A DNA stretch of 64,000 bases, taken from Pseudovibrio exalbescens. Its GTDB lineage: Bacteria > Pseudomonadota > Alphaproteobacteria > Rhizobiales > Stappiaceae. The DNA is taken from assembly GCF_028737195.1 (NCBI RefSeq), contig NZ_JAQZAJ010000006.1:62001-126000 (forward strand). The letters are read 5' to 3'. Under the pieces are notes generated by a model. The model was not told where the DNA came from, searched no databases, and worked only from the letters and a program-made list of their open reading frames with translations. Positions 21,188 to 52,429 of this stretch are shown piece by piece (the stretch's first letter is position 1; each line of letters starts with the position of its first letter). The position numbers were made by a program, and so were the translations under genes.

Positions 21188-21189
21188 AA

Positions 21190-23436: not shown

Positions 23437-23441
23437 ATTTT

Positions 23442-27623: not shown

Positions 27624-27703
27624 CTGTTTGCTCCTTCGAAAGGTTGAGCAAACTTTACATTAAAGTGCAGGAGGGTTCGGGGGGCAGGTCATACCGAGCA
27701 TTG

Positions 27704-30380: not shown

Positions 30381-30386
30381 GTCAAA

Positions 30387-30581
30387 GGCTTTCCCCGGAT
30401 TACCAAGAGCTTCGTCCAAGAAGGGGCGACAGTCTCGGAACTCTCTGCACGCTCGGACCTTTCACCGGCCGCCTATGCCGACGTTGCAGGGCACTGGGCG
30501 AAAATGGGCGCAACCATCATTGGCGGCTGCTGCGAGGTTGGCCCCGCTCATATTGCAGAACTCGTGCGGCGTTTGACCTGA
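30387..30581 (+). pseudogene. homocysteine S-methyltransferase fragment (C-terminus)
   Basis: The last about 60 codons of a homocysteine S-methyltransferase-family gene: SDLSPAAYADVAGHWAKMGA followed by TIIGGCCEVGPAHIAELVRR. GGCCEVGPAHI carries the paired zinc-binding cysteines of the family. Everything upstream is replaced by an IS3-family remnant, so the gene was cut by the insertion. The open frame starting at 30186 is a chance fusion of the two. Confidence 0.75.
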
Positions 30582-31056: not shown

Positions 31057-31411
31057 CATAACTCAAGCCCGAGCCGTTCGGGACGACTGCTCCAAAGGCA
31101 TTAGGGCTGGTGGCGGGAGTCCAATCAAAAGCCAGGGACCTCGCGGTGGATACACCAAAGGTAGTGAAACATGTACCAGTGAAGCGAAGTGAGGTACGGC
31201 AATGTGCTTAGTTTTGCCTCAGCCGGCGTATGAAACTAGACAAGATTTTCTTTCTTCAGCCCGACTAAGGTGCTGGCGGGCATTAACCTAGACGCACCAC
31301 GCGATGGGAGCCAATTTGCCCAAGGTGATTCTCGATTAACCGATTAACTTCCATGAGTGAAATGAGAGGTGCGTTTTTTGACCCTGATACTATACTTCTA
31401 AATGAATTAAC

Positions 31412-31449
31412 ATGATTAATCATCGCATTGATTATTGATATCGATAATC
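31412..31449. promoter_or_regulatory. paired palindromes, candidate operators
   Basis: ATGATTAATCAT (31412-31423) is a perfect 12-bp palindrome. GATTATTGATATCGATAATC (31430-31449) is a 20-bp palindrome with one mismatched pair. Their centres are 22 bases apart, two helical turns, so dimers bound at both would face the same side of the DNA. A regulator gene is not seen nearby. Confidence 0.45.
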
Positions 31450-31578
31450 TAAAAAAAACTAATTCTCACTGCGTCTGAGAGAATTCTAGTTTTACAACCA
31501 ATAGAAAACCACTTGCCTTACGCTGAGTAATATTAAATAAAATTAGAATAATTTACGATCTAATACTATTGTAGAAAG

Positions 31579-31607
31579 TTGATAAACATTCATATTGCTG
31601 GTATCTC
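31579..31607 (+). promoter_or_regulatory. candidate sigma-70-type promoter of the precursor gene
   Basis: TTGATA (31579-31584), a 17-base spacer, and TATCTC (31602-31607). The -35 match is good, the -10 match is weak. Transcription would start near 31614, giving a leader of about 60 bases that contains the hairpin at 31629-31654. Confidence 0.3.
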
Positions 31608-31628
31608 GACACTCGGTCCAGTAGAGGA

Positions 31629-31654
31629 AGCCCATCTCATACAATCGATGGGCT
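31629..31654 (+). promoter_or_regulatory. leader hairpin before the precursor gene
   Basis: AGCCCATC (31629-31636) pairs perfectly with GATGGGCT (31647-31654) around a 10-base loop. No T run follows, so it is not a terminator. It ends 10 bases before the AAGGAG ribosome binding site (31665-31670) and may stabilise the mRNA or affect translation. Confidence 0.5.
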
Positions 31655-31676
31655 CTTGGCTATCAAGGAGTGTGTC

Positions 31677-31871
31677 ATGTCAAACATTGAAAATAGCACT
31701 TCAAATACTCAGGAAGAAGTCCGGGAAGACGTATCCAACACGACCGATGAAGTAAAATCTGTCGATGCGACTGTTCAACATGAAGAAAACCACGATGATC
31801 TGGACGACCTAGATGATCTGGACTTCGATCTTGAAGATGTTGAAGACAAGATCGCTCCCCTCGCTCTTTAG
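31677..31871 (+). CDS. acidic precursor (scaffold) peptide of the PEARL-type cluster
   Basis: A 64-residue peptide starting at ATG 31677, 6 bases after AAGGAG; an in-frame TTG seven codons earlier lies before the ribosome binding site and is rejected. Of 64 residues 22 are Asp or Glu, including a repeat DDLDDLDDLDFDLEDVED, followed by the hydrophobic end KIAPLAL. There is no Cys or Trp, and no Ser or Thr after residue 32. A LanB-type dehydratase would find nothing to work on in a C-terminal core, whereas a PEARL only needs a recognised C-terminus to which it adds amino acids. The gene is first in the cluster and lies between two hairpins. Its role as scaffold is inferred from position, size, composition and the four LanB-like genes downstream. 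Confidence 0.75.
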   Translation: MSNIENSTSNTQEEVREDVSNTTDEVKSVDATVQHEENHDDLDDLDDLDFDLEDVEDKIAPLAL

Positions 31872-31910
31872 CCGGTTTCGAGCAGCTTAATAGCTGGGCA
31901 ACTTCCGGCT
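31870..31910 (+). promoter_or_regulatory. stem-loop after the precursor gene
   Basis: AGCCGG (31870-31875) pairs with CCGGCT (31905-31910), enclosing a second perfect small hairpin CAGCT-TAAT-AGCTG (31883-31896). There is no U run. Such structures after a precursor gene often protect its transcript or reduce read-through so that peptide is made in excess over enzymes. Confidence 0.45.
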
Positions 31911-31935
31911 TCAAATCATAGTGTGGAGCAATCTC

Positions 31936-32553
31936 ATGAAGTTGATGATTATCTCTGGTAGCCCGCGCATGGGCTCCCAGTCGGGTAAGCTCGCCCATTT
32001 ACTTGCAAAACGTCTATCCAGGCGGCGTAAAGAGGTGACTTGCGCTGTGTTAGACCTTGCAGAGCCAATCCTGCCAGAGCTGACGGACGATGTTTTCAAA
32101 TCCCCGCCAACGCCGGGGTCACCTTGGCACAGCACCTTGGGTGACCTTTCTGATGCGGACGGCTTTGTGGTCATCACACCCGAGTTCCACGGCATGGTAC
32201 CACCTGGTTTGAAAACACTGTTCATGCTGTCTGGAGAGGGGCCGTTTTGTGACAAACCAGCCTTGCCGGTGGGAGTTTCGGATGGCATGGGCGGCGTCTG
32301 GCCCATCGCGGAATTGCGCGTCTCCAGCTTCAGGGGAAATCGGCTCTGCTGGATCCCTGATGACGTGGTGGTGCGGCGCGTGAGCGACGTCAACGCCGCA
32401 ACGGAACGGGCTTTCACCGAGCCGTCGCAGAAGTTTCCCGCCATCTGGGCGCGTTTGGATGCTTCCTGTGATCTTCTCATTGGTTATACCCGGGCGCTTT
32501 CAGAAGCGCGCAAGGATGGGGCCATTCAGAGAAAACACAAGGAAGCGGCATAG
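31936..32553 (+). CDS. NAD(P)H-dependent FMN reductase-like flavoprotein
   Basis: A 205-residue flavodoxin-fold protein. The phosphate-binding loop is ISGSPRMGSQSGKLA (residues 6-20), and the second signature is VITPEFHGMVPPGLKTLFML (about residues 80-99), as in NADPH-dependent FMN/azo/quinone reductases. ATG 31936 was chosen; a GTG five codons upstream is possible. It is the first gene after the precursor and is probably either the supplier of reduced flavin or an oxidoreductase acting directly on an added amino acid on the scaffold peptide. No membrane segment. Confidence 0.75.
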   Translation: MKLMIISGSPRMGSQSGKLAHLLAKRLSRRRKEVTCAVLDLAEPILPELTDDVFKSPPTPGSPWHSTLGDLSDADGFVVITPEFHGMVPPGLKTLFMLSGEGPFCDKPALPVGVSDGMGGVWPIAELRVSSFRGNRLCWIPDDVVVRRVSDVNAATERAFTEPSQKFPAIWARLDASCDLLIGYTRALSEARKDGAIQRKHKEAA

Positions 32554-32592
32554 CGCTGCTGTTCCGCTTGTCCATTTGATTTTGAGGTACGC

Positions 32593-33840
32593 ATGAAAAC
32601 GGCGCCCGACTGGCTGCGACTTGCCCGAAACCACGATTATCGTTTGCTGTGGCTGGGACAAACCATCTCCACCTTTGGCGAATCCATCTATCAGGTCGCG
32701 TTTTATTGGCTCGCCTACGAGATGACAGAAAGCGCGTGGCTGGCGGGTCTCGTGGTGTTTTGCGCCAGCGCCCCTTACCTACTGTTCGGATTGATCGGCG
32801 GCGTTTACGCGGACAAATGGAACCGCAAGTCATTAATGCTGTTTTGTGATCTGATCCGAGCAGTTGCCGTGGCGGTTGTGCCTGCGTTGGCGCTGGCAGG
32901 CATGTTGACGGTCTGGCACTTGGCATTGATTGCATTTGTCTTGACAAGCGCCCGCTGTTTCTTTCATCCGTCGTTGAATGCAGCGGTTGCTGGTGTCTTG
33001 GATGATGACACCCGGGCCCTTGGGGTGTCCCTCGTGGAGGGCGGTTTTCGGGCTGCGCGCCTGATTGGTCTGGCACTTGGTGGCATTCTCATCGAGCTTT
33101 GGGGCGCAGATCAGCTCTACACCATCGCTATTGTAACCTTTTTTGTTTCCATTGGTTTTGTAGTGCCGCTGCGCAATGTCGGCCATGCCGAAGGTGAGGA
33201 GTCCGAAGACAACCTGCTCGGTGCTCTTGGTGGCACGCTGCGCTTTCTGCAGGGCCATAGAGATTTGTTCTGGGGCATCATCTTGTTTGGTGTCGGCCTG
33301 ATGTTTGTTACGGGCCTGGAGCGTGTCGCGCTGCCGCACGTGGCAGACCAGAACTGGGGCGCAGGAGCCAGTGGCTTTGGTTGGGTTCTAGCCATGATCA
33401 CCATCGGCTACGTTTTTGCGTCCCTTGTGATCGGCCGTTTGCAAATCAAAAATCCATCGCTTTACATTTTCGGCGGATGGGCGCTTTGGGGCGTCTTTTT
33501 TGCCGCGCTTGGACTCTCTGAAAACATCTGGATAGCGCTGAGCTTCGCCCTGCTGGTAGGCGCTGTAGAAGCGGTCGTGGATATTCCGCTTGTGGTGCTG
33601 ATACAAACAAAAACGCCCGGTAACCGAATGGGCAAGGTGTTCAGCATGTGGTCCACCATCGCTTTTATCGGCGAGAGCTTGAGCGCGCTCATGATTGGTG
33701 CGTTGATCTCCCAGTCTACCGCCCCAGCTGCATTCATCATGTGCGCTGCCGGGACTGTGGCCATGGCCATCTTTGGACTGATTGCAAGCCGTTCGCGCGC
33801 TTCAGACGAACCGCAGGCCCTTGAAGGGGGCAAGTCATGA
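32593..33840 (+). CDS. MFS exporter (EntS/MFS_3-like)
   Basis: A 415-residue inner-membrane protein with about 12 hydrophobic segments. The loop between helices 2 and 3 reads GGVYADKWNRKSLMLFCDLI, the conserved MFS motif A region. The overall pattern (start HDYRLLWLGQTISTFGESIY) is typical of the EntS-like drug or siderophore exporters. It starts after GAGGTACGC and overlaps the M3 peptidase start by 4 bases. In this cluster it probably exports the finished small molecule and gives self-protection. Confidence 0.82.
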   Translation: MKTAPDWLRLARNHDYRLLWLGQTISTFGESIYQVAFYWLAYEMTESAWLAGLVVFCASAPYLLFGLIGGVYADKWNRKSLMLFCDLIRAVAVAVVPALALAGMLTVWHLALIAFVLTSARCFFHPSLNAAVAGVLDDDTRALGVSLVEGGFRAARLIGLALGGILIELWGADQLYTIAIVTFFVSIGFVVPLRNVGHAEGEESEDNLLGALGGTLRFLQGHRDLFWGIILFGVGLMFVTGLERVALPHVADQNWGAGASGFGWVLAMITIGYVFASLVIGRLQIKNPSLYIFGGWALWGVFFAALGLSENIWIALSFALLVGAVEAVVDIPLVVLIQTKTPGNRMGKVFSMWSTIAFIGESLSALMIGALISQSTAPAAFIMCAAGTVAMAIFGLIASRSRASDEPQALEGGKS

Positions 33841-35708
33841 CGATGACAGCCTCCCTTGCAACACCGGCGCCGGAGCCGTTCAGTTCGGGTGACGAGAGTG
33901 CTCACGAGGAAGTACGGTGGAAAATGATAGATCCCTTGTGGGATCCGGCTTCTGCAGAGTTCGCAGCTGCCCTGAGTAACGTCTGGGCGGGAGTAAAGCG
34001 GAGCCGAGAAGAGTTTGCTCGTTTCGCCAAGCAAGTAACGGCTGGGGCGCTGTCTGCCACCGCGCTGGAGCGACTTGATGCGGACTGGTCAGAACAGCGA
34101 GAGAGCATTCAGGAACTCTATGTGTTTTTGGAGTGCAAGCGCTCTCTTGGCGAAAGTTCCAAACACTTGATGAAGAATGCGGAACGTATTCGGCGCATTG
34201 CTACTGCGCATAAAAGTGCCCCTACGGAGTTTGTAGGGGTGATGCTCAAAGCAGGCCGGAGCGCCTCAGATTTATTCCCAAAAGGCGTGCCTGAAGAGGT
34301 TTTGAAGCGCTGGCAGAGTTGGGAAAGGGACGAGGAAAAAAGCAAGCGCAATGAACAGACAGACCGGCTCGGTGGACCCGGCTACAGACAGTGGTGGCAG
34401 GCCTACCGTGACACTCGAGCGCAGCTTTGTTTCCATCTGCCTGAGGACGGGATAGCCGATAACCAAGTCTCTGTGGTGGAGGCGACCCGCTTGTTGGCGC
34501 ACCCGGTTCGAAGCACTCGAGAAAGGATCTTCACAAGCGTGGAAACAGCTTGGCAGCCGCATCGAACCATGGCAGCCCACGCTTTGACCGGCCGCATTGC
34601 ATGGCGATGTCGAGCGGCTGAGATCAAGGGCGAAGATCGCTGGCAGGAGGCCCTTGCTGAAACGTCCCTCTCGCGCGGCGCAGTTGAGCGTTGTCTTGAG
34701 GCTGCAAACGCCCTTCGAGTTGACGCTCAAGCAGCGCTGACGGCTCAAGCGCACATGGCAGGCTACGAGAGGCTTGCACCTTGGGATCTGGATGCTTCCA
34801 GCCACTGGGTTGGTCCGGTTCCACTAAACGAGGCGCTGAGGGATACCGAGCGGGCGTTCAATGCGGTTGATCCGGAAATGGCTGGGTTTTTCCGTCTGAT
34901 GATGCAAGAGGGCTGGCTCGATGCCAGACCTCATCAGGCAGGACGCAGAACAGCGGACTTTCAAACCTCGATTGCCCGACGCGGCGTGCCACTCGTGCTC
35001 GTGAGCTATGATGGCCATGCTCTGAACGCGATCCGCATTGCCCATGAAACCTCGCACGCACATCATTTCTGGTGCATAAAAGATCTGCCCATGGAGCGGC
35101 ACTATGTGCCAACGGCCTCCGCAGAGACAGTGGCATCGTTTGCCGAACTTCTGCTGCGTAGCCAATGGCAGCGAAGCGGGGCGAACAGTTCTCAGCACCC
35201 ATGTGCCCAGTTCCGCCGCTACGCGTGGATGGAAGCGCAGGCCTTTATCGCCTTTGCGCTGATGCTGCCTGCCAACTTTACTTTTGAGAGGCAACTGACC
35301 GATGCGCCTTTCGCTCATACACCAGAGGAACTGGATCAGCGTTTCACGAAAGTCTGGTTGCACTGGTTCGGAGAGAACAACGTCAGCCCAGATGTGAGTG
35401 CGTGGTATCGCAAACCTGTATTCATTGCTTCTCAGTTTCATGGCTTGCCCTACATTGCCGGCTTTTTTCTTGCACACTTTCTTGAGGCGCAAAGACAGGC
35501 TTTAGGACCTCAGTTTGCTGGCGCCTACACCAGTCTTTTGCGCAGCATGGCTCAAAGCGACATCAATACCGCTTTCAAAACAACTTTTGGTGCTGATCTG
35601 GAAGAGGAGGCCGTGTGGGAAACGTGCCTGAGCGTGATGCGGGGCCGATTGAACCAACTGATGACAAGTGTCCTCGAGATGCCTGGGGAGGCTGCATCAT
35701 ATGCTTGA
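33837..35708 (+). CDS. M3-family oligoendopeptidase
   Basis: A 623-residue zinc metallopeptidase of family M3 (PepF-like). The active site AHETSHAHHF gives H403, E404 and H407 of the HExxH motif; in most relatives the residue before the second His is Gly (HExGH), here Ser. A downstream Glu in TASAETVASFAELL is the likely third zinc ligand, and the C-terminal YIAGFFLAHFLEAQ region fits the family. It is cytoplasmic with no signal peptide. It overlaps the exporter gene before it and the first LanB-like gene after it. M3 enzymes cut short peptides, so this one is a good candidate to release the modified residues from the scaffold or to degrade the spent peptide. Confidence 0.85.
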   Translation: MTMTASLATPAPEPFSSGDESAHEEVRWKMIDPLWDPASAEFAAALSNVWAGVKRSREEFARFAKQVTAGALSATALERLDADWSEQRESIQELYVFLECKRSLGESSKHLMKNAERIRRIATAHKSAPTEFVGVMLKAGRSASDLFPKGVPEEVLKRWQSWERDEEKSKRNEQTDRLGGPGYRQWWQAYRDTRAQLCFHLPEDGIADNQVSVVEATRLLAHPVRSTRERIFTSVETAWQPHRTMAAHALTGRIAWRCRAAEIKGEDRWQEALAETSLSRGAVERCLEAANALRVDAQAALTAQAHMAGYERLAPWDLDASSHWVGPVPLNEALRDTERAFNAVDPEMAGFFRLMMQEGWLDARPHQAGRRTADFQTSIARRGVPLVLVSYDGHALNAIRIAHETSHAHHFWCIKDLPMERHYVPTASAETVASFAELLLRSQWQRSGANSSQHPCAQFRRYAWMEAQAFIAFALMLPANFTFERQLTDAPFAHTPEELDQRFTKVWLHWFGENNVSPDVSAWYRKPVFIASQFHGLPYIAGFFLAHFLEAQRQALGPQFAGAYTSLLRSMAQSDINTAFKTTFGADLEEEAVWETCLSVMRGRLNQLMTSVLEMPGEAASYA

Positions 35709-38043
35709 TCAGCAATCCGCTTCTCACCAACAAAAAGCCCATGTCCGAGCTAGATGGCAATTTGGCCCTGAATTTGTTCTACGTTCTCCGGGCTTTCCGA
35801 TGGAGGTGCTTGAACTTTTTCGCATGCAGGACACCTTGGCAACCCTGCTGGAAATGGGTGCTAAAGACGCGAAGACGCAACAGGATTATAGCGAAGAAAA
35901 TCAACGCATTTTGGACAGTATTGGGCGTCTCTTGCAAAGGCAGGATATTCGCCAAGCGCTGTTTGTCTCAAGCCCGGATGTTTATCGCAACGCGGTACCG
36001 AAAGTTGAGCGAGCGCTTGCGAAATCCCATTTCAACTCTGATGCGCGGCGGGCGTTACGTACCGTGTTTGCCTACCTCCAGCGCTTCGCAGCCAAGAACG
36101 AGACCACAAGCTTTTTTGGTGCACTGAACTATGGCCGGATAGATGACGGTTGGGATGGCTGGGCAAGGCTTGAAACCACCGTAGATCGGAAAGAGGGGCC
36201 GGGGCTCGCCATGGGCGAGGATCTTGTTACTGAACGCCGCGTCTTTTTAACGTTTTGGGCCCTGTCGGCGCTTGCCGAAAAAATCGCTGAAGAACCTGAG
36301 TTCAGGAGCGCGTTGCCATTGCACCTTAATCCCATGGTCATCCTGAATGCGGATGGGTTGACTATGCCGGATCAATCCCATCGCCCGTTGCCACCTTGGG
36401 CGGTTGCAGTAATGGAGGCCATTGAAAACGGCCAGACCCGCAGCCAAATCCAGAAAACGCATGGCCCGCGCTCTCAGATTCTTATCGACAAGTTGGTTGA
36501 TTCCAGCATTTTGCGGCACGGCCCTATTGCTAGCTCCTCGCGCCTTGACGCCTTGGAAGAGTTGCTTGCCGTGGTCAGTGATTTGCCAGAAGGGTCCACA
36601 CGCGACAGGTGGGTTGAGCGACTGACAGCGTGGCAACGGTGGTGCGCGCAGATGAGCGCAGCGTCCTTCCAAGAGCGGCAAAAGCTGCTCGAAGAGGCAG
36701 CCTTGCAGTTTGAAACGCAGACCGGCTTGTCAGCATGGCGCGGAACCGGCGCGATGTATGAGGACCGCACCATCTACTATGAAGAAGCACGTGGCAGCAT
36801 CCGTGAGCTGACCTTTGGCCGCCGTCTTCATGAGGATCTTGTTCAACGGGCGGAGCCCTCTTTGCAACTCTCGGCAGCCATAGGGAATGCGCAATGGGAA
36901 GCCTTGCAACGCTCTGCCCGCGCCGTCTTCATGCATCTCTCACCGAATGGCACACCAGTGCCAGCCCCTCGGTTTATCGATGCAATGAAGGGTGAGGTGC
37001 CAACAATGCCTGCGGTGGGCACAAACGAGGTGCAACGCCGTCTGGAAGAGCTGGTCTCCAATCAATCTGCAGATGCGGACGGGTGCGTGCGCATTGCCCC
37101 AGAACAGTTGATGCTGAAGGAGATTGAGGGGCCGCGCTACTCGCTACTTGATGTCTTCATCGGAGCAAAGGACATGGACGCCTTGGCTTCTGGGAACTAT
37201 GAGCTCTTTGTTGGCAAGATGAACCATCATCTATTGCTGAACTCGTGGCTGACCACCTTTTTGCCAAGCCGGGATGAGTACTCATGCCAGCTCAACAACA
37301 GGCTGAATGAAGCGGGCCTGAGCGAACTTACCGCCCTTCAAGTGCGGCGGCGCAATAAAGGTTTCTATAGTTTCCCCGGTGAGCGCCTCGTTTACTCAGA
37401 TCCTATTGGCCGTTTCGACAAGGCTGACGGTGTCAGGGCGACATCTCTTGCGCGCGCTGAAGTCGGCCTTGATGATGAAGGTGTGGTGCGGTTGATGGTT
37501 GGCGGCAAGCCAATACCGCTCTACCTGACGTTGTCAGACCATCAAAAATACCCACCGTTCGCCGCGCTAGCCCTGCCTTGGCTGGCCGCGCCAGAGATTG
37601 ATCTTGGACAGCACACGCCACGCATTTACTTCGGCGACTGCGTGATACAACGGCAACGTTGGTCCTTTGCTGCGGAAGCTCTCAACGACATTACTGAGAT
37701 GTCAGGCGTTGCTTTGCTCAAGGCAGCGCAAACCTTCCGGCAAACATATGCACTGCCCGAACGGGTTTTTGCAAAGGCAGACGCAGAACGCAAACCCATC
37801 TACGTGGATTTCGCCGTTGAGCATTGTTTGGTGATGCTCGCTAATCTGCTCAAACGCAGCACCGCAGTACGTTTTGAGGAAATGTACCCTGATGCGGAGA
37901 GCCTTTGGTTGACGCAGGGAGGTGGTCGCTACCCGTGTGAGCTGCGAATTCATGCGATTTACCCCGGTCCAGTAGCGAAAGTACCAGAGACGACCAGAGC
38001 AATTGCAGGCGCCAAGCTCGCTGCTGGCGCGGAAATCGCTTAG
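35701..38043 (+). CDS. short LanB-like protein 1 (candidate PEARL)
   Basis: A 780-residue protein of the lantibiotic-dehydratase N-domain (glutamylation-domain) family. Landmarks in order: EFVLRSPGFPMEVLELF near the start, YLQRFAAKNETTSFFGALNY (about residues 123-142), YEDRTIYYEEARGS (about residue 350), GRYPCELRIH near the end, and TPRIYFGDCVIQRQRW. It is too short to include the roughly 250-residue elimination domain of full LanB enzymes, as in PEARLs, which use aminoacyl-tRNA to extend a peptide C-terminus. ATG 35701 was chosen for the GGGGAGG site 9 bases upstream. It overlaps the peptidase gene by 8 bases. Confidence 0.8.
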   Translation: MLDQQSASHQQKAHVRARWQFGPEFVLRSPGFPMEVLELFRMQDTLATLLEMGAKDAKTQQDYSEENQRILDSIGRLLQRQDIRQALFVSSPDVYRNAVPKVERALAKSHFNSDARRALRTVFAYLQRFAAKNETTSFFGALNYGRIDDGWDGWARLETTVDRKEGPGLAMGEDLVTERRVFLTFWALSALAEKIAEEPEFRSALPLHLNPMVILNADGLTMPDQSHRPLPPWAVAVMEAIENGQTRSQIQKTHGPRSQILIDKLVDSSILRHGPIASSSRLDALEELLAVVSDLPEGSTRDRWVERLTAWQRWCAQMSAASFQERQKLLEEAALQFETQTGLSAWRGTGAMYEDRTIYYEEARGSIRELTFGRRLHEDLVQRAEPSLQLSAAIGNAQWEALQRSARAVFMHLSPNGTPVPAPRFIDAMKGEVPTMPAVGTNEVQRRLEELVSNQSADADGCVRIAPEQLMLKEIEGPRYSLLDVFIGAKDMDALASGNYELFVGKMNHHLLLNSWLTTFLPSRDEYSCQLNNRLNEAGLSELTALQVRRRNKGFYSFPGERLVYSDPIGRFDKADGVRATSLARAEVGLDDEGVVRLMVGGKPIPLYLTLSDHQKYPPFAALALPWLAAPEIDLGQHTPRIYFGDCVIQRQRWSFAAEALNDITEMSGVALLKAAQTFRQTYALPERVFAKADAERKPIYVDFAVEHCLVMLANLLKRSTAVRFEEMYPDAESLWLTQGGGRYPCELRIHAIYPGPVAKVPETTRAIAGAKLAAGAEIA

Positions 38044-38055
38044 AGGAGGAAGACC

Positions 38056-39834: not shown

Positions 39835-39838
39835 CGTC

Positions 39839-44856: not shown

Positions 44857-47333
44857 GAAAATGGAAGCTTGCACCGCATTTTCTGATCCGCTCCGCCGGG
44901 TTTCCGCTCGAACTTCTTCAAGGTCTGAACTGCTGCCAGACCGCACAGATGGTCGATCGATTGCTGAAGGAAGAACAGCGACTGGAGCAGCTTGCACAAG
45001 AGATGGCTTCAAGGTGGATGGAGCTTCCCAAATTGCCCGGCCTCAAGCGAAAGAGTTTGTTCAAGTCACTTGCGGGCAAGGCCGCGTTCTCCCAAGAACG
45101 ACTTGAGCTGGCAGCGGCCGAGCCTACGCTCAAGGCGGATATGGTTGCCTGGAATGAAGCCCTCTCAGCGCTGCCCCCACTTCAACAGGAAGTAGAGCAG
45201 ACATTGCGTCAAGAATTGCTGGCCGCACGCAAGCACTTGACGAACGCGTTTGACGATCCGCTGCTTCACGAGGCTGTGTTCCTCTCAAGTCCCAGCATGT
45301 ACAAGAACGGGCTTGAAAACCTGTCAGCACCGGCGGAAGAACGCACCAGTGCTGTCCGCCGACAGGAGCGACAACTTGCATTGTACCTGCAACGGTTTAC
45401 CGCAAAAAACGAGACGACCAGCTTTTTCGGGCCGATCAACTATGGCAAGGTACTTCATCACGCCAGCCCCGAGGAGGCGGAGACTTGGCCAATCCGCTAC
45501 TCACTCTCCGCTGAGGGGGTGAAACGCAGGGCCTTTATGGCTTTTTGGGCCGTCAAGGCGTTGGCGACAACGATTGCCAGCCATCCAACGGTACGCACTG
45601 GGTTGAAGCCGGTGTTGGTGCCGGGGTGCACGGTGCGAGAGGATGGTACGCTCTGGATAGCGGCAGCAAACCGGAGCGTAAAGCTCTCCAGGCAACAACG
45701 TGAGGTACTGAGTTGCCTCAACAAGGGCTGGTCACTTGGTGAACTGGCACGGGAAGCTGACCTCTGTCCAGAGGCTCTGGAGGACGTGCTACGGCCCTTT
45801 ATGGAAAAACGTCTGGTTGAGATGGGCATCCATGTGCCAATGCAGGAAGCGGATGCTCTGCAATGGCTGAAAGACTGGCTAGACGCACTTGACATTGACG
45901 ATGAACAGATCAGCATCTGGCGAGACTTGTTGGGCATGCTTTGCCGAAAAAAGGCACTCTATCCCCTTGCCGATGCGCCACAAAAACAGGCTCTCTTGAA
46001 AGAAGCAAACGAGCTGTTCACCAAGTTCACGGGGCAGGAGTCAAGCCGAAATCAAGGTTCCATCTACGCAGATAGGTTTCTGCTCTATGAAGAGGGTGTG
46101 GGGCCTCTTGAACATGGCGAAATGGCCTCGGCGTTTGCAGAAAAAATGACGGCAAACCTAGCTCCCTTACTCGATATCTGGGCTTTGGCTGGCCAGCAGC
46201 GCTCAGCGTTTTTGAAAACGCTTGGCAAACAGATTTATCAATCGCTCTACGGTGAAAGCACGGCCCAGGTTCCTTTTGCCAAATTCATGCGGGATGTGCT
46301 GGGCCATGAAAAGCTGAAAGAGTGGGAGAGTGAGGCCGCATCCTTTCAGTCAGCTGTTGCGCAACACCTAACAAATGAGGAGCTCCTTGAGCGCCTTGGG
46401 GATCGATACAAAGAAGACGGTATCGAAGTGCTGAAAGTGCCGGGATCCAGTTTGGTGGCGGCAGCTAAGCAGCTCGCTGACCAGCAGCATGATCAAACGC
46501 CTCTGATCTGTTCACCGGACATAATGATCGCCAAAACACCAGCAGGTGCTCCGCGCATGGTTTTGGGGGAGGTGCATGATACAGCCATGGTGTGGGGATG
46601 GGCCCTCGGCCTGCATCCTCAGCACCCCAAACCGCAAGAGGAAATGTGGGCTTTTCTGGCGCCAATAAGCGGCCCGAATTGCGCAAACATTGCCGGATCT
46701 ACTCGGCTGAAAATCACACCATTTCGGTATCCCGGAGTGACTATTCCTGTATCTGCCGGAGCCGATACAGATGGCGTTGAAACTATCGACCTTTCCGAGG
46801 TTTGGGTGAGGGTACAGCATGACGGCCTTGCATTGATGCACGACGCGAGTGAGGTCCCGCTCGCCCTCTTTAATGGGGAGCTGTCTTCTTTATTGCATCA
46901 AATCTTTGCGCTGCCACGCGTGGTACCTTTCACCATTTCGTTCGGCGCGTTTACGCCTCGCATTGAAGTGGATGAGATCGTTCTGCAGCGGGCGCGCTGG
47001 ATCCTTGATCGCACTGAGTTGGGGCTGGACAGCGGCAGTGGAGGCGATACCAGTGCCTTGATGACAGGTGTGCGCCGCGCGCAGCTGAAAGCCGGGCTGC
47101 CGGAACAAGTCTTTGCGAAAATTCCCGGTCAGCCCAAACCGGTTATGGTCGATTTCCGCAGCCCTTTAAGTCTGGAGTATCTGGAGGCGCTAATGCCGTC
47201 AGAAGGACACGCGGTGCTCACCGAGATGATGCCGGATGACAACGGACTCTGGCTTGATGTGGGAACAGGCAAGCCCCATACCGCCGAAATTCGCTGCACC
47301 TATGCCGCTGTTGCAGAGCACGAAGCCTCTTGA
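44853..47333 (+). CDS. short LanB-like protein 4 (candidate PEARL)
   Basis: An 826-residue LanB-like protein. Landmarks: HFLIRSAGFPLELLQGL at residues 9-25, YLQRFTAKNETTSFFGPINY (about residues 175-194), YADRFLLYEEGVGPLE, TPRIEVDEIVLQRARWI and KPVMVDFRSPLSLEYLEALM. A winged-helix-like segment (SRQQREVLSCLNKGWSLGEL) lies near residue 280. ATG 44853 overlaps the preceding stop by 4 bases and lies behind GGGAGGAG. As with the other three, the elimination domain of true dehydratases is absent. The next gene starts 17 bases after its stop. Confidence 0.8.
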   Translation: MRKWKLAPHFLIRSAGFPLELLQGLNCCQTAQMVDRLLKEEQRLEQLAQEMASRWMELPKLPGLKRKSLFKSLAGKAAFSQERLELAAAEPTLKADMVAWNEALSALPPLQQEVEQTLRQELLAARKHLTNAFDDPLLHEAVFLSSPSMYKNGLENLSAPAEERTSAVRRQERQLALYLQRFTAKNETTSFFGPINYGKVLHHASPEEAETWPIRYSLSAEGVKRRAFMAFWAVKALATTIASHPTVRTGLKPVLVPGCTVREDGTLWIAAANRSVKLSRQQREVLSCLNKGWSLGELAREADLCPEALEDVLRPFMEKRLVEMGIHVPMQEADALQWLKDWLDALDIDDEQISIWRDLLGMLCRKKALYPLADAPQKQALLKEANELFTKFTGQESSRNQGSIYADRFLLYEEGVGPLEHGEMASAFAEKMTANLAPLLDIWALAGQQRSAFLKTLGKQIYQSLYGESTAQVPFAKFMRDVLGHEKLKEWESEAASFQSAVAQHLTNEELLERLGDRYKEDGIEVLKVPGSSLVAAAKQLADQQHDQTPLICSPDIMIAKTPAGAPRMVLGEVHDTAMVWGWALGLHPQHPKPQEEMWAFLAPISGPNCANIAGSTRLKITPFRYPGVTIPVSAGADTDGVETIDLSEVWVRVQHDGLALMHDASEVPLALFNGELSSLLHQIFALPRVVPFTISFGAFTPRIEVDEIVLQRARWILDRTELGLDSGSGGDTSALMTGVRRAQLKAGLPEQVFAKIPGQPKPVMVDFRSPLSLEYLEALMPSEGHAVLTEMMPDDNGLWLDVGTGKPHTAEIRCTYAAVAEHEAS

Positions 47334-47350
47334 CAAAATTGGAGCCAAGC

Positions 47351-49249
47351 ATGTTGCAATCAATCCAGAACTCGCAAGTCTTGACCTCACCTCAGGCTTA
47401 CTTTGTGCCCGTTGCCCTTGAGCCTGATCGAGCAGAGGCTAGGCTCTTTGAACAGGTTCCGACCGCAAAGCCCTTGGTGCTGCGCGTTCGACCTGTGGTT
47501 GGCGACGCAACACTTGGCTTCGGCAGCATTGCCCCCTTGGTCGCCCGGGCTTTTTCCTGGGCGGAAGCAGATCCCGAGAACAAAGAGTTCTTGCAAAGCA
47601 TTGCGGCCGAACTGACTTGGCTCTTCCCTGAGCTGAGAAGTAAGGACTTCTCCAAAGCAGCGCCTGAGCTGACCGAGATTGCAATAGCGCCATCCCGGCG
47701 ACGCTTGCACAAGGAGTCCGAACAAATTTTGCGCGTGACCGTGGCGCTAGGGCGGTTGCTGCGCAAATGGCTATGCTCAGACGAATGCGAGATCGGCGTC
47801 GTGCATGCAGTGTATGTTGACGGGATGGACGAACAGTCTGTGAGGGTCATGCGCCGCGTCGCGGACATCATGCCAGAAGGTGGCCCGCTCATCCTCTTTT
47901 CCCGTGGCGGGGAGTTCAAAGAACCCGTTGTAGAGGGGCTGGCCCCTTGGATCGGCCAAAAAGAACGACGCGCTGCCATGATTGAAGGCGTCATGCAAAA
48001 TCTCAAGCATGTTGTGTTGGATCAAGACGCGAGATCACCAGTTTCAGCTCTTGAGATTGTTGAGATAGACGGCATTGCCAACCTTGGCACACGCGAGAAA
48101 GCACTGGTTGAGGCCCTGAACACGTCCATTGAGGAAGATGAACAACCCGAAACGCTTGCCGCTCATGCAATCGCGGCGATTGAAGAGGCAGTGTTCACAC
48201 TGAACTTCCCCCAGGCAAGGGCCGTTCTGGGGCGAATAGGTGAGCGCTTTCTCGAGTTTTCTCCCAAGCAACAGCATGAGCTCGTGCTGCATCTGGCTTT
48301 CGCTGAAGCGTTTGCCTGCCGTTTCGAAAGCGCGGCAGAGGCGTTGCAATATGCCATGTCTTTGGCTGATACGGCTGATGAAAAGGCGATGAGCCATTTC
48401 TTCCTTGCACTGTTAAAGATCAAACGCCTAGGTCAGCCACTGCAAGGCCGCGAGCACCTTGATAAAGCCATAGCGATGTTAAAGGACCGAACCGATGATG
48501 CCGCGCTGAATGACTTGGCCTGGCTCTACAACTTGCGGGCCCTGTCTTTCGTCGAGCTGCGCGACGTAGCGAATGCTCGCAAACAGGTCCTGATGGGCAT
48601 CAAGTACAACAAAGCCTGCAAACGGACGCCCGATTCAATACACCTCAAGATCAATCTGTTGTCTAACATGACGAACTTGGAGGAGTTCACGCGTCAGGTA
48701 CCAAAAGCAATTGAGCGGTGGTCTGTGTTTGAACCCATGCTGAACTCCGCCGCTGGAAGCTTTGCGAAGCACTATCACTATCGGATGGGCGGACTGCTCA
48801 CAAAGGTTGATCGGTTTGAAGAAGCCTCTGACCATTTCATGAAAGCATATGCGGAAGCTCGCAAGTCCCATGATCTCTTCTATGCGGTGTTGATTGCACG
48901 CGATCTGGGCGGAGTTCTCTATCGGGCGGGGCAGGTTGAAGAAGCCTCAACGTGGTTTGAAACGTGCGTACGTCTTCAGGATGAGATGGGCGCGGATGAT
49001 GCGATCAGTGCTGACTGGGTCGCGTTGTGGTACTGCCGATGGTGCGTAACCACCAAAACCGCCGGCGCCAACGCGGTGAAGCAACCACTCTACAAATCCA
49101 TCTCTTCTGGCAGTATGGGGCGTGAAGGCGAAGATCAGTCTGGTGCCAACGCTTTTGCGCCAGTCGAGTTCCAATTCTTGCCGCGCCCCGGCACCAAGCT
49201 GAACCGTCCGTTTGACATCACAAACTTGTACTGGGAGTCAGCGTCGTAA
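47351..49249 (+). CDS. TPR protein with degenerate ATPase-like N-terminus, copy 2
   Basis: A 632-residue protein with the layout of the TPR protein at 38056-39834. The two share the helix SRRRLHKESEQILRVTVALG (there ERRLSRESEYTFRITNGLA), a strand in the Walker B position (VVHAVYVDGMDEQSVRVMRR), and about eight TPR-like repeats in the C-terminal half (HLKINLLSNMTNLEEF in both, with small changes). No P-loop lysine is seen. It follows LanB-like 4 as the other copy follows LanB-like 1. ATG 47351 was chosen with TGGAG 7 bases upstream. The stop shares a base with the next start (TAATG). Function unknown; a partner or chaperone role for the LanB-like proteins is inferred. Confidence 0.6.
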   Translation: MLQSIQNSQVLTSPQAYFVPVALEPDRAEARLFEQVPTAKPLVLRVRPVVGDATLGFGSIAPLVARAFSWAEADPENKEFLQSIAAELTWLFPELRSKDFSKAAPELTEIAIAPSRRRLHKESEQILRVTVALGRLLRKWLCSDECEIGVVHAVYVDGMDEQSVRVMRRVADIMPEGGPLILFSRGGEFKEPVVEGLAPWIGQKERRAAMIEGVMQNLKHVVLDQDARSPVSALEIVEIDGIANLGTREKALVEALNTSIEEDEQPETLAAHAIAAIEEAVFTLNFPQARAVLGRIGERFLEFSPKQQHELVLHLAFAEAFACRFESAAEALQYAMSLADTADEKAMSHFFLALLKIKRLGQPLQGREHLDKAIAMLKDRTDDAALNDLAWLYNLRALSFVELRDVANARKQVLMGIKYNKACKRTPDSIHLKINLLSNMTNLEEFTRQVPKAIERWSVFEPMLNSAAGSFAKHYHYRMGGLLTKVDRFEEASDHFMKAYAEARKSHDLFYAVLIARDLGGVLYRAGQVEEASTWFETCVRLQDEMGADDAISADWVALWYCRWCVTTKTAGANAVKQPLYKSISSGSMGREGEDQSGANAFAPVEFQFLPRPGTKLNRPFDITNLYWESAS

Positions 49250-50415
49250 TGGAAGAGCGGTTTCGAAATCCAGCCCCTACGCAACCACCAAACACCACTG
49301 ACGCCCTTATTATTGGCGGAGGGGTGGTTGGCGTTGTAACCGCCCTGCGTTTACTGCAGGCCGGGAAGAAGGTGGTGCTGGTAGAAGCGCGAGACGCCCT
49401 CGGGCTTGAGGCGAGTGCTGCCCGGGCAGGTCTGTTAACGACTGTGGCTGAGGGGGAGGCAGGAACACCATACTCACGGCTATCCATTGCCGGTCTGCAG
49501 CGGTTTCGGCAACTGGTGGCGGAGGTCGGCGGCGAGCAGTACCACGCACGACATAGTGTGGTCGAAAGCCCGCATTTGCGCGTGGCACAAGACTCCAAAG
49601 AGCTTGAGTTGCTCTCAGCATATCTCGCCGATCCCGGCCTTGCTGATCCCCATGAGCGTCAACTGGATGCAGCTGCACTGCGGGCGCGTCACCCCTATAT
49701 TGCCGAGGGCATTGCAGGTGGCATTGTTGGCGCTCATGCGCATCACACATACCCACCCGCACTGGTGTCTGCCTTGGCACAGTGCGCGCTGGACTTGGGG
49801 CTGACACTCCTGACCCAAACCCGTGTTGAAACATTGGTGCACACAACTTCTCGTGTTATTGGCGGGCGCCTTTCCACGGGCGTTGAGATAAAAGCTGCGG
49901 AAACAATTGTCGCGACAGGTTACCAAACCGGCAGCCTGCTGGAAGGCATGGGGCTACAGGTGCCCATAAGCCCGGTTCGTGGGCAAATGATCGTCGTTGG
50001 ATTGCCTAGCCGTCACCGTTTCGACCCCGTGATTACTACGGGCCGCGGCTATATCGTGCCGAAGGCGGGTGGGCGCGTTGTGATTGGGGCTACTCATGAA
50101 GCGCGGAAGAGCACTCCAAATCATACCCTTGGAGGGCTCTCCAGTCTCGCCGAGATCGCGCGGGTCGTGCCGATACTCCTGCAAGCGCCTGTGCTTGATC
50201 AATTTGTGGGTATTCGCCCCATGACACCCGACGGCTATCCGTTGATTGGACGCTTTGCCGGGCTGGATGGGCTGATCATGGCTACTGGCCATGGCAGCCA
50301 TGGTGTCTTGCTGAGCGCCATCACCGCTGATGTTGTCTGTGGTCTTGCCTTGGGCGAACCAGCTCACAAAGACTTTGAGGCGTTCAGACCCGACCGTTTT
50401 TCGGTTGCCGCATAG
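49249..50415 (+). CDS. FAD-dependent oxidoreductase, DAO family
   Basis: A 388-residue flavoenzyme of the D-amino-acid-oxidase/glycine-oxidase (DadA/ThiO) family. The N-terminal FAD-binding motif DALIIGGGVVGVVTALRLLQ (residues 17-36) is followed by VVLVEARDALGLEASAARAG, where substrate-side family members keep a similar Ala/Ser-rich segment. The C-terminal signature reads GIRPMTPDGYPLIGRFAGLD and ATGHGSHGVLLS. It most likely oxidises a C-N bond in an amino acid or amine; in this cluster the substrate is probably a residue added to the scaffold peptide or the released product. It is cytoplasmic and coupled to the genes on both sides. Confidence 0.82.
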   Translation: MEERFRNPAPTQPPNTTDALIIGGGVVGVVTALRLLQAGKKVVLVEARDALGLEASAARAGLLTTVAEGEAGTPYSRLSIAGLQRFRQLVAEVGGEQYHARHSVVESPHLRVAQDSKELELLSAYLADPGLADPHERQLDAAALRARHPYIAEGIAGGIVGAHAHHTYPPALVSALAQCALDLGLTLLTQTRVETLVHTTSRVIGGRLSTGVEIKAAETIVATGYQTGSLLEGMGLQVPISPVRGQMIVVGLPSRHRFDPVITTGRGYIVPKAGGRVVIGATHEARKSTPNHTLGGLSSLAEIARVVPILLQAPVLDQFVGIRPMTPDGYPLIGRFAGLDGLIMATGHGSHGVLLSAITADVVCGLALGEPAHKDFEAFRPDRFSVAA

Positions 50416-50432
50416 TTTGGGAGAAATTGTTC

Positions 50433-52376
50433 ATGTCACTTCGCCTGATTTACCCGCCGCAAACGGATCCCACCGCGCCTGATGTTGAGTTGATAGATCT
50501 GGCGGCGCGTGTTTGCGCTATGGGTGGACACCTTCTTGACGCTAACCAATTGGCATTTCGACGCTTTCTCTCAGGTTCCCATGCTGCAGCCCGCTGTGCA
50601 CTTCTGGAAGAAAAGCTGGCTGATTCAGCGCCGGATGAGGGGCTGTTGAATGGCGATCACGCCTACGGTTATTACCGTCTGCTGCGCAGCAAGCTTTTGC
50701 AGTCTGACCTCAGCGAGGAAGATGCCGGGCATATGTTGAGTGCTTTACTTCAACAGGATGCATCGCCGCGCAGGCAAGATGTGTTACGCCAAGACATAGA
50801 ACGAAGGCTCGAAGTTGGCATTGCACCTTACTACGGGCAGCTTCGTCTCAACGACTTAACCGCTGTGCATAGTACAGAAGTGAGTTCGGATCTCCGTGCC
50901 GTTTGCGAGGATCAATCATTTCCCTATCACGATTTTTGGCGAGTCCTTATTAGAAGGGTCGGGGTGCAGGCCTCCGAGACTTGGCTTGTCTGGCTTGATG
51001 CAGACCAACAACTCCTTCCCGCTATGAGCTTGCTAGAGGCGCTCTCTGAGTTCAGCACGCATGGCGAAGACCTGCCGAACCTTGTTTTCTGCGGGCCGGT
51101 TTCGCCGAGCTTGAATAAAGCAAAGAAATGCGGCGCACTGCCAGACGTTCCCGTTGAAATCCTGCCAGACAAACCTAGCGTCATGGCAAAGCTGGCGGAT
51201 GCCGACATCGGTGTGTCCCCCCACCATTGGGTCAGTGCAATCGGGTCCTTTACACTTCAGCGGCCAGCGGTGCCTGTCCTGCGTGTAACAGCCTCTCCGG
51301 AGTCGAACCATGCGTTTCATTCCATGTTGGCAAGTGGCGCTCTGGATGAAACATCAGTGCGACTGCTGTTCGTGGCACCGAGCACGCCCGATGCCCTGTT
51401 GGATCTGGCGGGGCTTCTGGCCGGGAAGGAGGCTAAATGGTCGGCCACCCTTGGTTTCGGCCGAACGCTTTCACGGGAGGTCGCGCAGCGTTTGGCGCAT
51501 GGGGGCTTGAGCTCATTGATGTTTGAGGTCAAAGGGTTTGCGGGCTGGCCCGATGAGCCGTCAGCACAGGAAGGGTTGCTGGCCTCCTGGCGTGCTGCCA
51601 AGCAGGCTGGTCTATATGTATCGCTAACGTTGGTCTATGGCTTCCCACGGGATACGGCTGCGAGCTTCGAGAGGTTTATCTCGTTCCTTGAAATGAATAG
51701 GGATGAGATAGACCAAATCTTGCGTCTAAAGTTATACAGGGTGCCAATTGGCTCTCCTGCACACCAAACGCCTGAAGATTTTGGCATCGTCGAGCTGATG
51801 GATCCGGGAAATGCAGATCTTCCAAGAACTCTTCACTTTCGGAGTGAAACCGGGCTCAACAGTGAGAATTTTTTCCAAACCGCAGCTGAGTTGGCGCCCC
51901 GCCTCAAGCTCCGTGACAACGACTTGCCACCGTCGCCGCTTCATGCCGATGAAGGAACGCCTAACGCAATTCAGATACCAGAACAGACGAAATCAGGCCT
52001 AACGGGAGAGTTCGGGGACAATATGAAAGTCACCAAAGCGCCCGGTGTCCGGCTGGTCCAAACACAATTTGACTACCGCGCACTAGATGATCTTTATGGC
52101 GACTTCCGACCTCGGCCAAACACACCACCTCCGCAACCAACCAATGTGGCAGCGAAGAAAGCATGGCTCGCGTATAATGCGAACAATGGCCGCATTCTAA
52201 ACTTGAGTGACGTTTTGGGCGGATTGCTAAACAAAGCGGAAGAACCAGTTTCCTTGAAAGACTTGACGGGATCATTCCCGCCTGCTGCTCGGGAAAAGAT
52301 TGAACTGGCACTGAAGAAACTAATGGAGCACGGGCTCCTCGTGCCCGAGCGGCAAACTGCCGATATCTCAGCCTAG
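50433..52376 (+). CDS. radical-SAM-like protein without the iron-sulfur cysteines
   Basis: A 647-residue protein laid out like a B12-binding radical SAM enzyme. An N-terminal helical and Rossmann-like part (residues about 1-285) is followed by a TIM-barrel-like part. Family landmarks are visible: a helix-strand WSATLGFGRTLSREVAQRLA in the place of the arginine-containing strand, GLSSLMFEVKGF in the place of the GIES strand, and VSLTLVYGFPRDTAASFERF in the place of the GLPGET motif. Where CxxxCxxC should stand the sequence is ASPESNHAFH, with S288, N292 and F295 at the three ligand positions, and no other CxxxCxxC exists. The last about 80 residues look like a winged-helix peptide-binding domain. 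It is last in the operon and may act as a peptide-binding or non-radical SAM protein. Confidence 0.65.
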   Translation: MSLRLIYPPQTDPTAPDVELIDLAARVCAMGGHLLDANQLAFRRFLSGSHAAARCALLEEKLADSAPDEGLLNGDHAYGYYRLLRSKLLQSDLSEEDAGHMLSALLQQDASPRRQDVLRQDIERRLEVGIAPYYGQLRLNDLTAVHSTEVSSDLRAVCEDQSFPYHDFWRVLIRRVGVQASETWLVWLDADQQLLPAMSLLEALSEFSTHGEDLPNLVFCGPVSPSLNKAKKCGALPDVPVEILPDKPSVMAKLADADIGVSPHHWVSAIGSFTLQRPAVPVLRVTASPESNHAFHSMLASGALDETSVRLLFVAPSTPDALLDLAGLLAGKEAKWSATLGFGRTLSREVAQRLAHGGLSSLMFEVKGFAGWPDEPSAQEGLLASWRAAKQAGLYVSLTLVYGFPRDTAASFERFISFLEMNRDEIDQILRLKLYRVPIGSPAHQTPEDFGIVELMDPGNADLPRTLHFRSETGLNSENFFQTAAELAPRLKLRDNDLPPSPLHADEGTPNAIQIPEQTKSGLTGEFGDNMKVTKAPGVRLVQTQFDYRALDDLYGDFRPRPNTPPPQPTNVAAKKAWLAYNANNGRILNLSDVLGGLLNKAEEPVSLKDLTGSFPPAAREKIELALKKLMEHGLLVPERQTADISA

Positions 52377-52390
52377 CAATACAACACAGA

Positions 52391-52429
52391 AATGCCCACA
52401 GGACCTTGTTTCTGGGCATTGCTTTGGTT
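52391..52429 (+). terminator. terminator-like hairpin at the end of the cluster
   Basis: AATGCCCA (52391-52398) pairs perfectly with TGGGCATT (52413-52420) around a 14-base loop, followed by GCTTTGGTT. It lies 15 bases after the last gene of the cluster and between convergent transcripts. Confidence 0.6.

Follow-up and report, generated by a model that had tools for sequence, protein, structure and literature searches.

The diagnostic enzyme of the pyrroloiminoquinone pathway, as described for the bha cluster of Bacillus (Halalkalibacterium) halodurans C-125 and the amm cluster of Streptomyces, is the TPR protein BhaC1/AmmC1, an FMN-dependent tryptophan hydroxylase. The bha cluster makes a cryptic product and only part of its PEARLs have been assigned (PMC11117183, available in part), and a TldD/E protease has been demonstrated for amm and, in the available portions of these papers, for amm only. 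Which organisms make the pyrroloiminoquinones of sponges is an open question (PMC9787360, available in part). In this study, we describe a 12-gene operon within a 64-kb window (the whole stretch of DNA analysed) that, with a probability of about 85%, represents the bha kind of pyrroloiminoquinone-type pearlin cluster within the Pseudovibrio/Nesiotobacter group, its pathway steps being our own predictions.

The operon runs on the plus strand from the precursor gene to a SAM-like gene, and every gene named in a first-pass annotation of this DNA was found there. It opens with an acidic scaffold (precursor) peptide of 64 residues (31677..31871, ATG at 31677; profile match E 3.5e-12, the window peptide being one of the profile's seven seeds), an NADPH-dependent FMN reductase (31936..32553; PF03358, E 3.9e-20), a predicted MFS exporter (32593..33840; PF07690, E 1.1e-31), and an M3-family oligoendopeptidase with the HExxH motif HETSH (33837..35708; TIGR02290, E 2.6e-58, 198 bits against a cut-off of 561.7). 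The LanB-like proteins P1 (35701..38043; 780 residues), P2 (39839..42304; 821), P3 (42301..44856; 851), and P4 (44853..47333; 826) follow, with the TPR protein C1a (38056..39834) between P1 and P2 and a second one, C1b (47330..49249), behind P4. A DAO/ThiO-like flavoenzyme (49249..50415; PF01266, E 1.9e-59; TIGR02352, 200 bits against a cut-off of 250.8) and the SAM-like protein (50433..52376), labeled from weak matches, complete the set. The description of the genes as mostly overlapping just holds: 6 of the 11 junctions overlap (by 4, 8, 4, 4, 4, and 1 bases) and 5 are gaps (64, 39, 12, 4, and 17 bases). Downstream of the last gene lies a terminator-like hairpin with a poor T tail (52391..52420, plus strand; read by eye and unscored), whose stem is preserved in Pseudovibrio exalbescens through paired changes, likewise compared by eye.

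The prediction that the four LanB-like proteins are PEARLs, not lanthipeptide enzymes, is supported by several features. Lant_dehydr_N (PF04738) is the sole Pfam domain in each of them, as the first-pass annotation had expected, and none carries Lant_dehydr_C. Full and split LanBs match Lant_dehydr_N as well, which is what a class I lanthipeptide or thiopeptide cluster—a dehydrated RiPP whose split LanBs glutamylate Ser/Thr—has in its favor, yet such a cluster is hardly credible here. Pfam detected no elimination domain among the operon proteins, and a search of the genome was equally empty, with none of its 14 controls detected and hence little weight; Cys is missing from the precursor, and Ser and Thr from its conserved tail, so that neither an elimination domain nor a Ser/Thr/Cys-rich precursor was seen in the operon. 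Moreover, the residues at R34, Y205, R208, R429, D558, R715, F755, E813, and R815 of BhaB-Trp, published as binding ATP or tRNA, are the same in all four proteins (numbers placed by alignment and spacing, without the BhaB sequence), and the Asp and Arg whose places are taken by Tyr and Leu in split LanBs (PMC11117183, available in part) are, by alignment, also present in all four. Two departures lie nearby, with Thr replacing a conserved Asp of the 429 loop in P3 and Asn replacing a conserved His near the matched residues in P1. Lanthipeptide identity was rejected for want of an elimination domain and of Cys in the precursor.

The pathway type, previously given as perhaps pyrroloiminoquinone-like, is now firmer because the scaffold tail, the C1-type TPR flavoenzymes, the glycine-oxidase-like enzyme, and the FMN reductase all match bha/amm. 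The acidic scaffold ends in KIAPLAL (VEDKIAPLAL), in line with the KIAPLAL(A) tail of the bha/amm pathway and resembling the scaffolds of lymphostin/ammosamide-type clusters, and its core and tail are common to clusters of Salinispora, Streptomyces uncialis, and others. The FMN reductase and glycine-oxidase-like genes of this pathway are present at the family level, with the ThiO cut-off unreached. The bha-type identity of the cluster thus stands on homology and synteny, and its individual steps are predicted; most likely, it builds a Trp-derived, ammosamide-related quinone alkaloid at the end of a reusable small peptide. It does not qualify as an ammosamide cluster, since family searches of the operon proteins found neither TldD/E nor a halogenase, a methyltransferase, or an amide synthetase; ammosamide identity was rejected on these missing tailoring genes and on the phylogenies, where no window PEARL falls in the AmmB4-position (Arg) clade in either tree.

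The amino acids that the four PEARLs may use were predicted from trees in which gene order served to assign the amm positions of S. uncialis and many PEARL rows are of odd composition. The firmest prediction is that P1 is Gly-tRNA dependent, in the AmmB3/BhaB5 role, as it groups with the AmmB3-position enzyme in both the smaller tree (bootstrap/aLRT 100/99) and the 69-row tree (aLRT/bootstrap 97.7/98). P2 has orthologues in Anoxybacillus and Paenibacillus (100/100). Holding it with the AmmB1 (Leu) orthologues gave a tree 17 log units better than that of the free search (AU p 0.75), but the 69-row tree places it beside the Gly clade (aLRT/bootstrap 100/99), and AmmB1 orthology is one possible reading of P2. 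P3 belongs to a clade (100/99) with the Anoxybacillus and Paenibacillus enzymes Anoxy_a4 and Paeni_p1, and is predicted to be Ala-tRNA dependent (BhaB-Ala role) by analogy with the neighborhood of its Paenibacillus orthologue: there, C1b, p1, and the precursor lie side by side, and BhaC1, BhaB-Ala, and BhaA have consecutive accessions (BAB05752, BAB05753, and BAB05754). For P4, mixed evidence points to Trp-tRNA dependence (BhaB-Trp/AmmB2 role). It groups with the AmmB2-position enzyme in the smaller tree (94/91) and stands apart from the actinobacterial Trp clade in the 69-row tree, and a placement with the AmmB1 position is also unrejected (AU p 0.44). Among 68 PEARLs, Paeni_p7, a member of the P4 clade, best fits the BhaB-Trp spacing (4), P4 itself (32) fitting worse than P2 (19). 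Because two AmmB1-position enzymes fit this spacing well (7 each) and the AmmB2-position ones poorly (49 and more), we used it only to rank Bacillota enzymes.

Both TPR proteins are homologous to BhaC1/AmmC1; a TPR pair is not foreign to a pathway whose diagnostic enzyme is itself a TPR protein. The Lys/Asn/Lys triad of C1, matched by spacing, corresponds to K346/N426/K580 in C1a and K365/N446/K623 in C1b, and the spacing in the Paenibacillus C1b (81/182) equals that of BhaC1. C1b, with tree support of 100/99 and then 98/97, is predicted to be the FMN-dependent Trp trihydroxylase in the BhaC1/AmmC1 role, and C1a is, by homology, a paralogue of this hydroxylase; both sit on long branches. The DAO-type flavoenzyme is a candidate glycine oxidase (BhaG/Amm14 role) and the FMN reductase a candidate quinone reductase (BhaH/Amm17 role). 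An MFS homologue precedes the PEARLs in Anoxybacillus (327 bits). Of the earlier "cluster-less radical SAM" protein, the absence of CxxxCxxC stands, for it and for its two homologues, in the Anoxybacillus and Paenibacillus clusters, but the SAM-like label depends on weak matches. Its predicted structure, with a mean pLDDT of 51, was kept out of fold searches, and its C-terminal end may resemble the N-terminal region of LanB. Searches of solved structures returned no usable match.

The remaining alternatives concern the chemistry, the integrity, and the last step of the cluster. Eight different amino acids are known as PEARL substrates (PMC12424672, available in part), the roles of P2 and C1a are unassigned, and the Trp assignment of P4 is mixed, so that the operon might instead be a pearlin cluster of another chemistry (Cys-derived and 3-thiaglutamate-like, or based on an oxidized amino acid other than Trp), with C1 hydroxylating something else. 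We consider this improbable, given that the clusters of S. uncialis and Salinispora combine the scaffold tail, C1, a Gly-clade PEARL, and a glycine-oxidase-like gene. The unit is patchily distributed, being present in 2 of 41 relatives and 1 of 397 genomes of an order-wide sample (its own genome counted in both, and the only one in the latter), as one might expect if a transferred cluster survived as a decaying or silent remnant. An insertion-sequence-like gene, recognized by eye, adjoins it in P. exalbescens and fits the same picture. The unit was recently transferred: it (31277..52414; blastn, E 1e-10) is 97.2% identical to that of P. exalbescens over 21,144 bases (∼21.1 kb), compared to 86.8% for the rpoB region, and nothing aligns outside it at the same threshold (the upstream comparison spanning 358 bases only). 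Decay, by contrast, is very unlikely: all 12 genes are open in both species, with dN/dS of 0 to 0.38. The cluster genes are under purifying selection, and their arrangement, intact in a second species, is more than chance.

As for product release, the M3 peptidase occurs only in this group (the window and P. exalbescens) among 44 sequence sources, duplicates included and most of the loci extending no further than 10 kb from C1; by analogy, it is a candidate release protease replacing TldD/E. The window contains no TldD-like ORF, and with TldD/E demonstrated for amm only, we did not take an in-cluster pair as a strict criterion. Two TldD/PmbA genes lie elsewhere in the same genome, on contig C22, and TldD/E is the protease demonstrated for amm, so housekeeping TldD/E could release the product while M3 recycles or degrades the scaffold. 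This is a somewhat unlikely division of labor, as each of the two Bacillota clusters retains a TldD/E pair of its own between the precursor and MFS genes; the present operon has none at that place and instead an M3 gene beyond the MFS gene, overlapping both neighbors. Of the gene combination that the first-pass annotation did not know to be described, the M3 peptidase alone is peculiar to this group among the sources scanned; the TPR pair and the SAM-like protein recur in two Bacillota clusters.

On our preferred reading, a bha-type pyrroloiminoquinone cluster, the peptide ending in PLAL would serve as a reusable scaffold, to whose C terminus P3 would add Ala and P4 Trp. C1b, using FMN, would trihydroxylate the indole, and the FMN reductase would set the quinone/hydroquinone state. 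P1 would then attach Gly to the quinone ring; its oxidative removal as glyoxylate by the DAO enzyme would leave an amine behind. One further change, either another ring amination or an added C-terminal residue, might be the work of P2, perhaps together with C1a. M3 would cut the modified Trp from the scaffold, perhaps as Ala-Trp*, because the encoded scaffold stops before Ala, and the MFS protein would export the product. For the SAM-like protein, presentation of the peptide is a possible role in place of radical chemistry.

Our literature search found no paper on such a cluster in Pseudovibrio/Nesiotobacter, but older supplements may mention one, the P. exalbescens genome having been public for years. 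A speculative and, as a whole, unlikely idea is that these marine bacteria produce an undescribed pyrroloiminoquinone lacking halogen, which M3 instead of TldD/E would release as an Ala-Trp* dipeptide and for which the second C1 would perform a new indole oxidation; if true, it would reveal a proteobacterial route to the core of alkaloids known from sponges. The pathway is extended to a genus that, by the title of a cited reference, includes sponge isolates, which bears on the question of the makers of the sponge compounds, with the relevance to sponges limited by the origin of P. exalbescens DSM 16456, a hypersaline lagoon isolate. With four PEARLs, intact genes, and a named type strain that carries it, this relative of bha offers a smaller system for assigning steps, those of P2 and C1a types included. 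Should M3 prove to release the product, the last step would have been solved in another way.

Compared to known systems, the bha cluster, as described in the available parts of the papers (PMC11117183; PMC11962472; PMC9850906; PMC12550832), shares a tail, EDKVA-PLAL when pieced from the paper, that parallels VEDKIAPLAL here, as well as Ala, Trp, and Gly PEARLs, a C1 flavoenzyme, a glycine oxidase, a quinone reductase, and further TPR proteins. By the paper's numbering, it has seven PEARLs against four here, and it differs, on paper descriptions only, from our locus with its alphaproteobacterial host and operon-encoded M3 peptidase. Anoxybacillus sediminis PCH 117 and Paenibacillus polysaccharolyticus BL9 have orthologues of P1 to P4 and homologues of both C1 proteins and the DAO, MFS, and SAM-like proteins, with scaffolds ending in PLA and PLAL. 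In Anoxybacillus, even the order from P1 to the SAM-like gene is the same, save one extra PEARL between P4 and C1b. In contrast to the window, each has seven PEARLs, of which one is split in Anoxybacillus, and carries a TldD/E pair but lacks M3. A third C1-like protein is found in Paenibacillus, together with a methyltransferase. The best 5 of 20 other C1-matching Bacilli genomes yielded no scaffold, and PEARL pieces in one. The ammosamide/ammosester (amm/ame) clusters of Streptomyces share the scaffold core (KIAPLALA), C1, Gly- and Trp-position PEARLs, and a glycine-oxidase-like gene, but their scaffold encodes the Ala, a single C1 and no P3-clade PEARL were found, and they include an Arg PEARL, TldD/E, a dipeptidase, a halogenase, and a methyltransferase (PMC12424672, available in part). 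The TglB-type 3-thiaglutamate pearlins, compared through mentions in partly available papers only, share the PEARL enzyme class and the scaffold logic and are set apart by their Cys-derived chemistry. What distinguishes the present locus is its host group, its four-PEARL set, and an M3 peptidase without TldD/E in the operon: a known pathway type, found in another bacterial group and equipped with a different candidate release protease.

A single plus-strand operon, carried by a genome of 4.39 Mb in 26 contigs, runs from the gene for a 64-aa acidic peptide (31677-31871) to a SAM-like gene (50433-52376), in the order precursor, FMN reductase, MFS, M3 peptidase (33837-35708), P1 (35701-38043), C1a (38056-39834), P2 (39839-42304), P3 (42301-44856), P4 (44853-47333), C1b (47330-49249), DAO, and SAM-like. 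Pfam and NCBIfam searches place these proteins in the FMN_red, MFS, M3 peptidase, Lant_dehydr_N (P1 to P4), TPR (C1a and C1b), and DAO/ThiO-like flavoenzyme families, with the SAM-like protein alone left without an assigned family. The gene set read from the sequence in the first-pass annotation was confirmed, as was its claim that the LanB-like proteins lack an elimination domain, since the N-terminal LanB family is the sole LanB family matched. The functions proposed here are transferred from published homologues and are putative to that extent.

Judged from sequence, the two TPR proteins are the signature enzyme type of the pathway. BhaC1, from the Bacillus halodurans (bha) pathway, and AmmC1, from the ammosamide (amm) pathway, are described as FMN-dependent TPR proteins that add three hydroxyl groups to a C-terminal Trp, with published residues K391/N472/K654 and K350/N432/K602, respectively (PMC9850906). 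C1a and C1b are homologous to one another and to an actinobacterial C1, and the Lys/Asn/Lys columns, matched by spacing, are invariant save in an odd Paenibacillus C1c (K346/N426/K580 in C1a; K365/N446/K623 in C1b). The spacing of 81 and 182 is identical in Paenibacillus C1b and BhaC1, and that of Streptomyces uncialis C1 is 82/168, compared to 82/170 in AmmC1. In a 20-row tree rooted on the very long C1c branch, C1b clusters with Bacillota C1b (100/99), and both then join the 13 actinobacterial and myxococcal C1 rows of the tree (98/97). C1b is likely the Trp trihydroxylase. C1a is an unassigned C1 paralogue with identical key residues, a second type limited within this tree to Bacillota and the window's group; both proteins are long-branched.

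A scan of named genomes yielded 35 loci, of which that of Pseudovibrio exalbescens DSM 16456, also called Nesiotobacter exalbescens (PMC12080928), is closest, with 98% identity for C1a. Because the rpoB region (4.7 kb) is only 86.8% identical, the window's genome is, by this measure, a different species, and because positions 31277-52414 are 97.2% identical across 21,144 bases, transfer of the unit postdates the species split. Beyond these positions, nothing aligned at E 1e-10 (63,487 bases compared) bar 106 bases at 61357, in a comparison that is long downstream of the unit and limited upstream to 358 bases of the P. exalbescens contig. All 12 genes are open in both genomes, with dN/dS of 0 to 0.38 in a position-by-position comparison; when aligned as nucleotides, precursor, M3, and P2 show 2 to 4 gaps. 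The unit is rare, being found in 2 of 41 relatives, own genome counted, and in its own genome only among 397 of the order; among 398 genomes of the phylum, five matched at E 1e-3, the own match being strong and the other four reaching 18 to 23 bits. By these sequence comparisons, the unit is discrete, transferred, and under selection.

Several neighboring genes may be recorded here. Immediately upstream, a 131-aa ORF (30186-30581) matches only the C-terminal end of homocysteine S-methyltransferase (241-282 of 283) and is perhaps a gene remnant. Downstream lie a minus-strand McrBC-like pair (54028-57356; a PF10117 protein and an AAA_5 protein) and an HNH nuclease (57696-58760). In P. exalbescens, an insertion-sequence-like transposase gene flanked by two copies of a ~20-base sequence was seen by eye directly downstream of the cluster. 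Farther off are carotenoid-type genes (5885-9538; amine-oxidase family, squalene/phytoene synthase, and lycopene cyclase by Pfam) and surface polysaccharide genes (14006-28645; glycosyltransferases, UDP-GlcNAc 2-epimerase, and UDP-sugar dehydrogenase), among them a heparinase-like/FkbM methyltransferase fusion (23406-25964); GC is 43 to 46% in five of six 2-kb bins across 14 to 26 kb.

The scaffold peptide of the window ends in ...DDLDFDLEDVEDKIAPLAL. Seven tails of this kind served as seeds for a profile that, across 49 sources, matched 29 rows representing 25 distinct clusters; one scaffold is diverged (L051; E 1.7e-4), and the match of another (L050) stops short of its C terminus. KIAPLALA, sometimes with a short extension, is present in 19 of the 25 (Salinispora, S. 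uncialis DCA2648, Kitasatospora, Actinomadura, and others, with L046 read separately from the search). Four end sooner, at PLAL in the window, P. exalbescens, and Paenibacillus and at PLA in Anoxybacillus. The profile found no peptide in eleven myxococcal-type loci (L022-L030, L032, and L033), one of which, L023, is titled Comamonas sp. KCTC 72670, has a layout like the Myxococcus loci, and may be misnamed. In BhaA, an EDKVA stretch is reported to precede PLAL, to which a PEARL adds Ala to give PLALA (PMC11962472), and the AmmA-derived fragment is given as IAPLALA-Trp (PMC11117183).

Amm8, Amm9, Amm11, and Amm18 are described as LanB-like, with Amm9 being AmmB2 (PMC8210675); we took the four as AmmB1-4 and assigned S. 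uncialis positions from gene order. Two PEARL trees were built, one of 36 rows (bootstrap/aLRT; flagged by the program for long branches and, in 25 rows, for odd composition) and one of 69 rows under a simpler model (aLRT/bootstrap). P1 groups with the AmmB3-position enzyme (Gly) in both (100/99 and 97.7/98). P4 groups with the AmmB2-position enzyme (Trp) in the smaller tree (94/91) and falls outside the actinobacterial Trp clade, at weak nodes, in the larger. Published BhaB-Trp residue numbers give a spacing of 174-221-129-157-40-58-2, against which 68 PEARLs were scored by total difference. The closest is Paeni_p7, a Paenibacillus member of the P4 clade (4), with two AmmB1-position enzymes at 7, P2 at 19, the Anoxybacillus enzyme Anoxy_a5 at 25, and P4 itself at 32; the 157 interval, a feature noticed post hoc, occurs among Bacillota and window PEARLs only in P4, Anoxy_a5, and Paeni_p7. 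Because the trees disagree and the spacing fit is mixed, P4 is likely, not firmly, the Trp enzyme. The P2 (100/100) and P3 (100/99) clades of the 36-row tree have only Anoxybacillus and Paenibacillus as co-members, and both are seen only in clusters whose scaffold ends before the final Ala. The consecutive accessions of BhaC1 (BAB05752), BhaB-Ala (BAB05753), and BhaA (BAB05754) imply that the three genes are neighbors; in Paenibacillus, C1b, p1 (a P3-clade member), and precursor adjoin. P3 is predicted from this neighborhood to be the Ala enzyme, and the distribution of its clade, though shared by the P2 clade, is as expected for one. P2, placed beside the Gly clade in the 69-row tree (100/99), may by analogy either aminate the ring a second time, like AmmB1, or add a C-terminal residue, like BhaB4 and AmmB4.

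The SAM-like protein is harder to place. CxxxCxxC is absent from the three homologues checked, and their NCBIfam matches are weak, mixed, and found in one member each (PpsR, E 0.0095; RiPP radical-SAM methyltransferase, 0.0097; CarH, 0.087; pseudo-SAM family, 0.11). The C terminus touches the LanB N-terminal family in two of the three (lowest E 0.0068; 0.07 for the window protein), and the predicted structure is poor. Our guess would be a peptide-binding helper whose cluster has been lost.

In the amm pathway, a TldD/E step is reported to follow Arg addition by AmmB4 (PMC12424672). The operon contains neither TldD/E nor an AmmB4-type gene, TldD/E genes lying elsewhere in the genome. In a scan of 44 sources, duplicates counted, 21 have a TldD-like ORF, and M3-like ORFs occur only in the window and both copies of the P. 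exalbescens locus; as most loci are cut, absences there weigh little. The M3 peptidase is inferred to carry out product release. That an entire enzyme is retained for attaching Ala, a residue a single codon would provide, suggests that this Ala would depart together with the product. A related cluster on a Kitasatospora sp. NBC_00039 plasmid (L011, 15747-38457) bears scaffold, C1, seven PEARLs, an oxidoreductase, and TldD-related proteins. In the Anoxybacillus sediminis cluster, one PEARL gene is broken into two overlapping frames and one stop was counted within another match. Its order is precursor, TldD, TldE, MFS, split PEARL, P1, C1a, P2, P3, P4, extra PEARL, C1b, DAO, SAM-like, and further PEARL; TldD/E thus precedes MFS there, whereas in the window M3 comes after MFS.
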